Part shown: piece by piece, positions 59,070 to 61,964 of the stretch | Layout of the letters: every line of letters begins with the position of its first letter | Position numbering within the stretch: position 1 is the first letter of the stretch | From: Parundibacterium terreum | GTDB lineage: Bacteria > Pseudomonadota > Gammaproteobacteria > Burkholderiales > Burkholderiaceae_D | NCBI RefSeq assembly: GCF_014636315.1 | Contig: NZ_BMED01000003.1 | Span: forward strand, 1-64,000 | Direction: 5' to 3' | DNA length: 64,000 nucleotides | Position numbers and translations under genes: made by a program | Notes under the pieces: generated by a model | Seen by the model: the letters and a program-made list of their open reading frames with translations, nothing else | What the model was told of the DNA's origin: nothing | Databases searched by the model: none

Positions 59070-61052
59070 ATGACAGCCTTGGACACAACACTACTGCTTT
59101 TGGGCGCTGCCGTGCTCGGCGTGGTGGCTTTTCGCATGATGCAATTGCCGCCTATGCTGGGTTACTTGGTAGTCGGGATATTGATAGGCCCGTATGGGCT
59201 GGGTCTGGCGCAAAACGACGCGACGACGCATGAGCTGGCGGAGTTCGGTGTTGTTTTTTTGATGTTCTCCATAGGCCTGGAATTTTCCCTGCAAAAGCTG
59301 ATGTCCATGCGCAAGGCGGTGTTTGGCTTGGGCATGGCGCAGGTACTGGTGACCATCGTTGCGACCATGGCCTTTGGCGGACTGATGGCCTATTTCCTGC
59401 CGCTCAAATTCAATATCAGTTGGGAAGCTTCGTTTGCCCTGGGCGGCGCATTGGCGATGTCGTCCACCGCGATCGTTTCCAAGATGCTGACTGAAAAGCT
59501 GGAGCTGGAAAGCCCGCATGGACGGCAGATTATCAGCGTGCTGCTATTTCAGGATCTGGCAGTGGTTCCCTTGCTGATCCTGGTGCCGGCACTGGCCTCG
59601 CACTCCGGCAATTTAATGGAAACCCTGTTGTGGGCCAGTGCCAAGGCTGCCTTTGTGCTGTTTGTGCTGCTGTTCATCGGCCAAAAGCTGATGCGGCGCT
59701 GGTTCAGCATCGTCGTAAAGCGCCGCTCGCAGGAATTGTTCATGCTGAACCTGCTGCTGGTGACGCTGGGCGCCGCCTGGATCACAGATTATGCAGGTTT
59801 GTCTATGGCCCTCGGTGCCTTTGTCGCTGGCATGCTGATCTCTGAAACAGAATACCGGCACCAGGTGGAAGAGGACATCAAGCCTTTCCGCGACGTGCTG
59901 CTGGGACTGTTTTTTGTCACGATAGGCATGCTGCTGAATGTCAGGCTGGTCATTGCCAATGGCTGGCTGATCCTGTTGCTGCTGATGGGGCCCGTGCTAT
60001 TGAAGTTCGGTCTGATCACCGCGCTGGCCAGACTGTTTGGCGCCTCCACCAGCGTTGCCTTGCGTACCGGCCTGGGCTTGGCGCAGGCGGGCGAATTCGG
60101 TTTTGTGCTGCTGAACCAGGCCGGCGGCTTGCAACTGGTGGATCCTTTGCTGGTGCAGTTGATCCTGGCCTCGATGGTACTGTCCATGCTGGCTTCGCCA
60201 TTCATCCTGGCGAAGTCGGATGCGATCGTGATGAAGCTGTCCGCCAATGAATGGATGATGCAGTCGCTGGCGCTGACCCAGATCGCGACCCGCACGATGG
60301 CGACCAAGAAGCATGTGATCATCGCCGGCTTCGGCCGCAGCGGCCAAAGCCTGGCCAAGCTGCTTAGCGAGGAAAAAATTGATTATCACGCGCTGGATCT
60401 GGACCCGGACCGCATACGCGAAGCGCAGATCGCCGGTGCCAATGTGTCTTACGGCGATGCAGCACGCCGCGAGAGCCTGGTGGCCGCCGGTATCAACCGC
60501 GCTGCAGCGCTGGTTGTGACTTATACCAATACCGCGTCGGCGCTGAAGGTGCTGCATTTTGTCAGCGAATTAAATCCGACTTTGCCCGTCATTGTGCGTA
60601 GCCAGGACGATACCGACCTGAATAAATTGCGGGAGGCGGGCGCCACCGAAGTAGTGCCGGAACTGCTGGAGGGCAGCCTGATGCTGGCCTCGCATGCGCT
60701 GGTGTTGCTGGGCGTGCCTTTGCGCCGCGTCGTGCACAGGGTGCAGGCGGCGCGTGACGAACGCTATGAATCTCTGCGCGGCTATTTTCACGGCGCCAGC
60801 GATGCCGGCGACAGCCCGGAGAGCATGCAGGTGCGCCTGCACACGGTACTTCTGCATGAAAGGGCCAAGTCCCTGGGCAAAAAGCTGGAAGAGCTGAATC
60901 TGTCAGAACTGGAAGTCGATGTGACCGCAGTGCGACGCGGCAAGCAAAGGCTGGAACTGGCCCAGCAGATCGTTTTGCAGGAGGGGGACGTGGTTGTGGT
61001 GCGCGGTATCGCAGAAGCTGTCGCTAGGGCAGAGCATCGCCTGTTAAAATAG
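59070..61052 (+). CDS. Kef-type monovalent cation:proton antiporter (CPA2)
   Basis: The 660-residue protein has about twelve helices of the CPA2/KefB family, with MFSIGLEFSLQKL and SSTAIVSKMLTEK in the transport core. A TrkA-N domain (Rossmann motif HVIIAGFGRSGQSLAKLL, near residue 410) and a C-terminal TrkA-C domain (about residues 580-658) follow. It is likely a regulated K+ or Na+/H+ exchanger. The ATG at 59070 has only a weak ribosome binding site. It diverges from kdsD; the palindromic element follows it. Confidence 0.88.
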   Translation: MTALDTTLLLLGAAVLGVVAFRMMQLPPMLGYLVVGILIGPYGLGLAQNDATTHELAEFGVVFLMFSIGLEFSLQKLMSMRKAVFGLGMAQVLVTIVATMAFGGLMAYFLPLKFNISWEASFALGGALAMSSTAIVSKMLTEKLELESPHGRQIISVLLFQDLAVVPLLILVPALASHSGNLMETLLWASAKAAFVLFVLLFIGQKLMRRWFSIVVKRRSQELFMLNLLLVTLGAAWITDYAGLSMALGAFVAGMLISETEYRHQVEEDIKPFRDVLLGLFFVTIGMLLNVRLVIANGWLILLLLMGPVLLKFGLITALARLFGASTSVALRTGLGLAQAGEFGFVLLNQAGGLQLVDPLLVQLILASMVLSMLASPFILAKSDAIVMKLSANEWMMQSLALTQIATRTMATKKHVIIAGFGRSGQSLAKLLSEEKIDYHALDLDPDRIREAQIAGANVSYGDAARRESLVAAGINRAAALVVTYTNTASALKVLHFVSELNPTLPVIVRSQDDTDLNKLREAGATEVVPELLEGSLMLASHALVLLGVPLRRVVHRVQAARDERYESLRGYFHGASDAGDSPESMQVRLHTVLLHERAKSLGKKLEELNLSELEVDVTAVRRGKQRLELAQQIVLQEGDVVVVRGIAEAVARAEHRLLK

Positions 61053-61118
61053 CGCCTGCCGCCAAAATAGCTTGTTGTGTTTTTGAAAATGCAACAGGCT
61101 TTTTTACGCCATTTTTAA

Positions 61119-61387
61119 TAGAACTCATTTCATCAATAGGAGCGAGTGCGAACGAGTCCATTTGGGATGCAGTGCGAGGCGCGTCGCGACGCAAAGACTG
61201 GCCGTCTTTGCTAGCGGCGCAACGCTGCAATGCGCCCAAATGGGCCGTTCCCGGAGGGTTTGTCTTAAAAGTGGCGCTGGACTGCGTTGCACTCGTTGTC
61301 AATAGCTCGCTATTGACGCCTTGCACGCCTTGCCAGCGCCGCTTTTAAGGCAAACGCATCTCACTCCTATTGATGAAATGAGTTCTA
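61119..61387. mobile_element. 269-bp palindromic element with 24-bp terminal inverted repeats (MITE-like)
   Basis: The ends are perfect 24-bp inverted repeats: TAGAACTCATTT at 61119 runs to GAG at 61142, and CTC at 61364 runs to GAGTTCTA at 61387. Both start and end with TA, which fits a target-site duplication of the IS630/mariner kind. Inside are two arms. Arm A pairs CCATTTGGG (61158-61166) with CCCAAATGG (61235-61243) and GCAAAGAC (61191-61198) with GTCTTTGC (61204-61211). Arm B pairs 61264-61280 with 61333-61349 (17 bp with one G-T pair) and GTCAATAG (61298-61305) with CTATTGAC (61310-61317). No protein is encoded. It lies between the antiporter gene and apt. Confidence 0.7.
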
Positions 61388-61421
61388 GCAACCGAAGTAA
61401 TCGAAAGAAGGACATCACGCG

Positions 61422-61964
61422 ATGTTAAACGCATCCCAATACATCAAGGAACATATCCGCACAGTGGAAAACTGGCCGCAACAAGGGGTCATGTTCCGTG
61501 ATATTACGCCCTTGCTGCAAGATCCCAAGACCTTCCGCGTCTTGATCGACCTGTTTGTGCACCGTTACATGGATGCCAAGCTGGACATGGTGGCGGGCCT
61601 GGATGCGCGCGGCTTTATCATAGGCTCGGTACTGGCCTATGAGCTCAACCTCGGTTTTGTGCCCATCCGCAAGAAAGGCAAGCTGCCTTTCACTACTTTG
61701 TCGGAACAATACGAACTCGAATACGGTAGTGCTACCGTAGAATTGCACGCCGATGCCTGCAAGCCAGGCGATCGCGTGGTACTGATAGACGATCTGATCG
61801 CTACCGGCGGCACCATGATGGCCGGCAAGAAACTGCTGGAACGCCTGGGCGCGGAAGTAGTGGAAGGCGCGGTCATCGTCGATTTGCCGGAACTGGGCGG
61901 CTCCAAGCTGCTGAAATCCAGCGGGCTGCAGTTGTACACCGTATGTGACTTCGACGGGCATTGA
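61422..61964 (+). CDS. apt: Adenine phosphoribosyltransferase
   Basis: The 180-residue enzyme has the family opening [25 protein letters not shown] and the PRPP-binding motif [17 protein letters not shown]. It salvages adenine to AMP. AGAAGGACATC gives a ribosome binding region before the ATG at 61422. The palindromic element lies 34 bp upstream, so the element may affect apt expression. A strong terminator follows. Confidence 0.95.

Follow-up and report, generated by a model that had tools for sequence, protein, structure and literature searches.

The window, by which is meant the whole 64,000-nucleotide stretch of the Parundibacterium terreum genome that was analysed, contains a palindromic element of 269 bp between a Kef-type antiporter gene and apt. 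This element is quite probably a MITE that bears the ends of an IS5-family insertion sequence (IS), is moved in trans, and carries two mirrored modules that are structured as single strands, likely RNA. The parts of the element and its neighbours are as follows.

61119 to 61387, + strand: whole element, 269 bp, with the sense strand of arm 1 on + and that of arm 2 on -
61119 to 61146, + strand: left terminal inverted repeat, from the sequence
61360 to 61387, - strand: right terminal inverted repeat, from the sequence
61119 to 61120, no strand: left TA, one copy of the duplicated target dinucleotide (TA duplication seen at another copy)
61386 to 61387, no strand: right TA (TA duplication seen at another copy)
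61156 to 61245, sense +: arm 1, a long hairpin with the core GTGCGAGGCG ... GCAACGCTGC, from the fold and the models
61250 to 61258, no strand: CCCGGAGGG hairpin between the arms, from the fold, with a CCC-N2-4-GGG linker in other loci
61258 to 61355, - strand: arm 2, a long hairpin with the core GGCAAGGCG ... GCAACGCAG on the - strand, from the sequence and the model
61069 to 61100, + strand: terminator-like hairpin of the Kef-type gene, a neighbour outside the element
61422 to 61964, + strand: apt ORF, a neighbour outside the element, its start codon 34 bp behind it
59070 to 61052: Kef-type ORF, a neighbour

The terminal arms (61119-61146 and 61360-61387) are 28 nt long and 96% complementary, the outermost 24 pairs being perfect, and the inner closed stems are GCAAAGAC/GTCTTTGC and GTCAATAGC/GCTATTGAC. 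A preliminary description of this DNA had placed the palindrome at 61119-61387, between the Kef-type gene and apt, with 24 perfect outer pairs, two inner stems and TA at both ends, and all of these points stand. Its three-way junction accounts for the two long arms and the outer stem, and becomes a junction of four helices if the CCCGGAGGG hairpin is counted; its statement that the element has no coding capacity was slightly loose, since an antisense ORF of 100 aa (61024-61326), probably a product of chance, crosses most of the element. The predicted fold of the 269 nt has a minimum free energy of -166.5 kcal/mol; 200 dinucleotide shuffles average -91.0 (sd 5.2), and none of them folded equally well (z = -14.5). 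Within arm 1 the covariance model R2 matches at 61162-61238 (+) and R1, the covariance model of arm 2, at 61169-61232 (+); within arm 2, where an internal loop is present twice, R1 matches at 61275-61339 (-). No sigma-70-like promoter was found in 60950-61480.

A strong fold that ends 34 bp before apt might be read as a structured RNA of that one locus, either a leader of apt or an sRNA. Against this stand the copies dispersed beside other genes, the fact that the genome that best matches the flanks has no element at apt, and the result of a search with Rfam 15, in which the window region gave no match above the gathering score and two weak ones (E 0.59 and 0.88) far below it. The reading is refuted by the copies and empty sites described below, and we give it practically no credence.

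The window's genome (G000; 6.37 Mb in 16 contigs) contains 24 copies, 203-358 bp long, with an end on either side. The 24-bp end occurs there 57 times at up to 3 mismatches, as opposed to no occurrence of the same pattern read backwards. By ORF heuristics, 16 of the 24 copies lie between tandem genes, 5 between divergent and 3 between convergent ones. There are also near-empty end pairs of about 38-54 bp (C2:697841-697894, C1:1073670-1073721, C1:1360480-1360517 and C8:8061-8111), which seem to be copies of minimal size or with deletions. Longer copies in several genera have a further hairpin module, CCCTTGCAGGGCGC ... CGTTACGCAGGC ... CCCTGC, inserted in their arms (L028, L029, L019:5460-5799, L099, L109, L192).

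Beyond this genome, a search that scored at most 7 candidates per genome found matches to the element at E <= 0.001 in 33 of 98 genomes (G000 included), some of them only short matches to an inner stretch; among the matches listed are full-length copies, 73-85% identical, in ten other genomes of the genus. Within the family, 48 of 294 genomes and 11 of 44 genera have the exact 20-bp end pattern, and none has the control pattern. Its carriers among the matches listed include Undibacterium, Herbaspirillum, Herminiimonas, Collimonas, Noviherbaspirillum and Keguizhuia; the same matches include single ones in unrelated genomes, e.g. Psychrobacillus, Lysinibacillus and Runella, which may be due to chance or contamination. 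The plasmid collection gave no relative at E 1e-5. Viral contigs yielded one match, on a contig of 56,756 bp whose size and match position equal those of a Noviherbaspirillum humi contig.

Comparison of occupied and empty sites indicates that the palindrome is a real element and is mobile, moving now or formerly. Among 43 genomes of the genus, the best match to the joined Kef-apt flanks is G040, which has no element between the two genes and aligns with the flanks without a break over 406 columns at 86% identity; its intergenic part is too diverged for an exact reading of the target at this site. The target can be read at another copy, which in G027, from a sister species, splits a gene that occurs in 5 of the 43 genomes and whose protein is uninterrupted in G042, G039, G035 and G019. 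At this position G042 (95% identical) has GACAGGCACATAATA and G027 has GACAGGCACA, then TA-element-TA, then ATA; one TA in the former against two in the latter means that TA was duplicated at the target. Among 107 distinct non-IS elements, 79 are bounded by TA on both sides; a pyrimidine lies next outside the TA at 134 of these 158 ends, which makes the target YTAR. A copy in G004 (L058:1500-1769) sits within a second palindromic repeat, versions of which are free of the copy in two other genomes. This landing site is a repeat of about 140 bp (AACCTGT...ACAGGTT) and is found uninterrupted in L210:93-235 and L227:5880-6019.

Six insertion sequences of 839-859 bp have the same 20-bp ends; their hosts are Herbaspirillum GW103, G108, a Herminiimonas MAG, Noviherbaspirillum malthae, Keguizhuia sedimenti and Undibacterium squillarum. 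A seventh, of 859 bp, resides in G042, which belongs to the genus of the window's genome. The outermost 20 bp of the element are those of the IS ends except at the variable position 16 (C in the element, A in the IS). The transposases of the Herminiimonas MAG and GW103 elements match DUF4096 and DDE_Tnp_1, and also NF033580 (IS5 family transposase) at E 1.9e-62, above the cut-off. Derivation from IS630/Tc1-mariner elements was therefore rejected, as the partner transposases belong to the IS5 family. The transposase gene of the GW103 and G108 copies occupies two frames that meet at GGCAAAAAAAGGGGCC, apparently a site of programmed frameshifting. The IS of G108 lies in an ORF for a resolvase-type recombinase that reads through if the two parts are rejoined at one TA; in the rejoined protein, which also has a Recombinase domain, the Resolvase domain (residues 19-162) spans the insertion site at about residue 134.

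The partner transposase was searched for in 13 genomes, five of which match at E <= 1e-10, G019 among them by a fragment only; none was found in G000 or in the 7 others, and the element thus looks stranded in the window's genome. Nor was the module found in the same-end insertion sequences: R1 gave nothing in 10 loci (the best match, E 0.11, lies outside the IS) and R2 nothing at E <= 1 in 7 loci. Some insertion sequences with TAGAACTC ends (L096, L106, L388) have a remnant of another end type, TAGGGTCTGTTAAC or TAGGGCCTGTTAAC, just inside one end, as if they had gained new outer ends. In G042 (L386:1-240), what appears to be the end of a TAGAACTC element has an IS with ends of the second type inserted at its terminal TA (AAATGAGTTC-TA-GGGGCTG).

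The proposal of the preliminary description that the palindrome is a MITE with a duplicated TA is thus borne out by the dispersed copies, the empty Kef-apt site and the single TA in the intact orthologue of the interrupted gene. The genome-wide search for copies with the same ends and the comparison of occupied with empty sites, both of which it had suggested, gave the 24 end-bounded copies and the TA duplication seen in G027 against G042. A single copy always found beside apt, with no empty sites, was the pattern that it had set against mobility, and dispersed copies and an empty site were found instead. Its assignment to the IS630/mariner type did not hold: the IS630-like transposase with matching ends that it had proposed to look for turned out to be of the IS5 family in the same-end partners.

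The inside of the element is the more unusual part. A common core, with GCAAGGCG on one side and GCAACGC on the opposite one, is found in arm 1 and, when reverse-complemented, in arm 2, so that the arms stand in mirror orientation, with their sense strands opposite, and are joined by a CCC-N3-GGG-like hairpin. An alignment of 65 end-defined elements of 262-290 bp has 101 consensus pairs, which together comprise 6518 cells: 6119 are Watson-Crick, 191 G.T, 87 A.C and 121 others, and 43 of the 101 pairs show at least two Watson-Crick types, each seen twice or more. Among 15 diverse copies per arm, cells changed on both sides number 52 and 49 in the two arms, against shuffled means of 19.1 and 14.3, and none of 500 shuffles reached these counts; weaker measures were reached by shuffles in arm 2 (pairs changed on both sides by 10 of 500, further pair types by 129 of 500). 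Of the 15 copies of arm 2, 8 have G-C and 7 have C-G as the central pair of the second loop. Compensatory changes, for which the preliminary description had advised testing the stems, are hence present in both inner arms, and the loops are conserved.

A further constraint appears when mismatches are counted on the sense strand of each arm. Counted over the 65 end-defined elements, independently of any covariance model, arm 2 has 107 G.T and 7 A.C cells plus 63 with other mismatches, and arm 1 has 124, 9 and 59 respectively, the cells not being independent of one another; the counted pairs were chosen from sense-strand folds, which may favour G.T somewhat. At 90% non-redundancy the counts are 36:3 in arm 2 and 29:3 in arm 1, although 15 of the 29 G.T cells of arm 1 are a single fixed T.G column, and leaving it out gives 14:3. 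The outer stem, as a control, has 16 G.T and 28 A.C cells, or 14 and 9 when one column is left out. Such an excess of about 14:1 in each arm, absent from the outer stem, is consistent with a constraint on the module in its folded, single-stranded form, and a mutational bias on one strand of the element cannot have produced both, as the arms are mirrored. Two tests on the whole element, an energy test of both strands (33/65) and a count of mismatch columns, showed no strand preference; we attribute the null result of the energy test to the mirrored arms, which cancel each other.

These counts also bear on the proposal that the palindromes are kept only by template-switch copying (quasi-palindrome correction) or as cruciform DNA, with no selection on a single strand. 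In its favour, Watson-Crick pairs make up nearly all of the paired cells, with swaps such as C-G to G-C, and it is in keeping with the energy test that found no strand preference. It is, however, at odds with the contrast in G.T to A.C between the arms and the outer stem, and with the conserved asymmetric internal loops, which would be corrected away. For the arms it is largely refuted, while it may hold for the outer stem, and as an account of the whole it seems to us very improbable.

The strand-constrained module is most likely RNA. RNA is put before single-stranded DNA because 16 of the 24 copies lie between tandem genes, where read-through is plausible; G.T is the best-tolerated mismatch in single-stranded DNA too, so the bias does not prove RNA. 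An alternative that we regard as unlikely, but to be taken more seriously than the preceding one, is that the arms act as folded single-stranded DNA, e.g. on a strand exposed in replication or transposition, the mirrored pair serving both strands. DNA hairpins tolerate G.T wobbles, the elements are DNA transposons by their ends, and the strand bias fits a folded single strand of either kind. The same-end insertion sequences, on the other hand, are free of the module, and we know of no single-stranded DNA step in the cut-and-paste movement of IS5-type elements. The preliminary description had named a structured RNA as an alternative to a mobile element; a structured RNA is probably true in addition to a mobile element rather than in place of it, as the inner arms covary and have a strand-specific G.T bias.

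The module is more widely distributed than the ends that bound it in the window. In G000, R1 matches 30 places, of which seven, one of them diverged, belong to a second family with other ends (CTAGGGCCTGTTAACA-like). This family (L039-L045) has the same two-arm interior under its ends (TAGGGCCTGTTAACAATT). Two elements of 837 bp in G042 (G042:C1:4996430-4997266 and C2:98611-99447) have ends similar to those of the second family (3 mismatches) and ORFs in two frames that look like those of an IS5-type transposase. A third repeat, of about 180-195 bp with AACCCAGATTTTCCATTAGG ends, occurs in other genomes of the genus (L067-L080) and has a tip hairpin GTCAATAGCGAGCTATTGAC and weak R1 matches.

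R1 matched 11 of 13 chosen genomes, some of which had been chosen on hints from the earlier search with the element, and in an even sample of the class it matched 47 of 229 genomes and 41 of 196 genera (G000 included) at E <= 1e-4. At least two matches per genome were found in 32 of the 47, these copy numbers being lower bounds, as 22 candidates were scored per genome. A decoy model, made of the same arms read backwards, matched none of the 229 genomes; since there are no positives for the decoy itself, this result carries weight only insofar as R1 matches those same genomes. Inverted ends surround 26 of 39 R1 matches; the spans that they bound measure 265-276 bp in 13 cases and 159-167 bp in 6, leaving 7 others, and both arms are matched by a model in 11 of the 13 long spans and in none of the 6 short ones. 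The module thus lies within repeats of either about 160 bp, with one arm, or about 270 bp, with two. By reading, at least 15 clearly different end sequences occur around it. The linker CCC-N(2-4)-GGG is present between the arms in 31 of 32 two-arm loci, from 20 genomes. The 115 matches aligned to R1 have a covariation score of 0.654, as compared with 0.181 when shuffled. In the non-redundant model-aligned rows the ratio of G.T to A.C is 84:6 for R1 and 137:8 for R2, rows that were fitted to these models and so lean towards them. The recurrence of the module under quite different ends suggests that the fold itself does a job.

Among known systems the nearest are the MITEs of IS5-family insertion sequences, which are likewise short and non-coding, have a TA target and ends identical to those of IS5-family elements, and encode no transposase of their own. 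The element departs from them in having, in place of IS sequence, an interior formed by a conserved structured module that also occurs in repeats with other ends. The SINE families of eukaryotes have a shared structured core and move through RNA and reverse transcriptase. They resemble the element in having a common core while their other parts match different partners, but the element has the ends of a DNA transposon, and the likeness is an analogy only.

Correia (NEMIS) elements of Neisseria resemble the element in their TA ends, the length of these ends and their stem-loop transcripts. The comparison with them made in the preliminary description holds as a general resemblance only, the covariance models having no match to the Correia element: kinship was rejected at 4.0 bits for R1 and 7.4 bits for R2 on L384 (filters off), with a negative strict motif scan. 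Correia elements of Neisseria gonorrhoeae (L384, L385; NZ_CP119140.1, NZ_CP119142.1) have CAAGGCG and CAACGCCG just inside their ends, in the order of the module, a coincidence that is suggestive all the same. Both records are filed as plasmids, though with 2.17 Mb they are of chromosome size.

Kinship with ERIC was likewise rejected, as five E. coli stretches gave no match at E <= 1 (the best scored 5.0 and 4.5 bits with filters off) and the strict motif scan was negative. The ERIC loop is presumably similar to that of the module. ERIC (IRU) of enterobacteria, a TA-ended imperfect palindrome and to that extent of a similar kind to the element, is described as acting on mRNA (PMC10969869, PMC2229807). 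RUP of Streptococcus pneumoniae, as given in the available part of PMC2229807, is 107 bp long, has a TA target and is thought to be mobilised in trans by IS630-Spn1 through matching ends. RUP is thus like the element in its target and in using IS ends in trans, and unlike it in having an IS630 rather than an IS5 partner; the description in that part of PMC2229807 includes no two-arm module. CIR of Caulobacter and Brucella, according to the same part of that source, has an RNA fold of two arms and a linker, as the element does, and is without such terminal inverted repeats (PMC2229807); it is this description, and not sequence, that sets the two apart.

A search of 20 loci with Rfam 15 gave nothing above the gathering score (MIR2646 reached 37.6 bits on L277, against the 245 required, with E 1.8e-4). 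No published description of the module, or of MITEs in these genera, was found among the titles and openings of abstracts covered, from part of the journals.

As to mechanism, an IS5-family transposase supplied in trans would have cut and pasted the element into YTAR sites, and the cognate transposase would now be absent from the window's genome or diverged there. Each arm would function in the form of a folded single strand, RNA being the most likely, and with the pair mirrored, transcription of either strand would yield one working arm; elements with one arm exist, so the pair is not essential. As for what the fold binds, a guess would be some RNA-binding component of the host, e.g. the ribosome or a ribonuclease. 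A wider scenario, which we put forward tentatively as a possibility that falls well short of probable, is that of a MITE superfamily across the Gammaproteobacteria (as delimited in GTDB) with one structured RNA core, whose ends were exchanged for those of different IS5-like transposases. In this scenario the RNA would be independent of insertion orientation thanks to the mirrored pair, and its core may aid the capture of a transposase with a normal preference for its own gene, e.g. by attaching to a ribosome in the act of translation.

The common view of bacterial MITEs is that they are remnants of insertion sequences whose inside is of little importance. The element described here differs from this picture, as its inside is conserved and its ends change, and its module is present in 40 other genera of the 229-genome sample. 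The covariance models provide an annotation tool for a class of repeats that has no Rfam 15 match above the gathering score, and it has become possible to test in what way such elements are mobilised in trans and whether their RNA is of any consequence.
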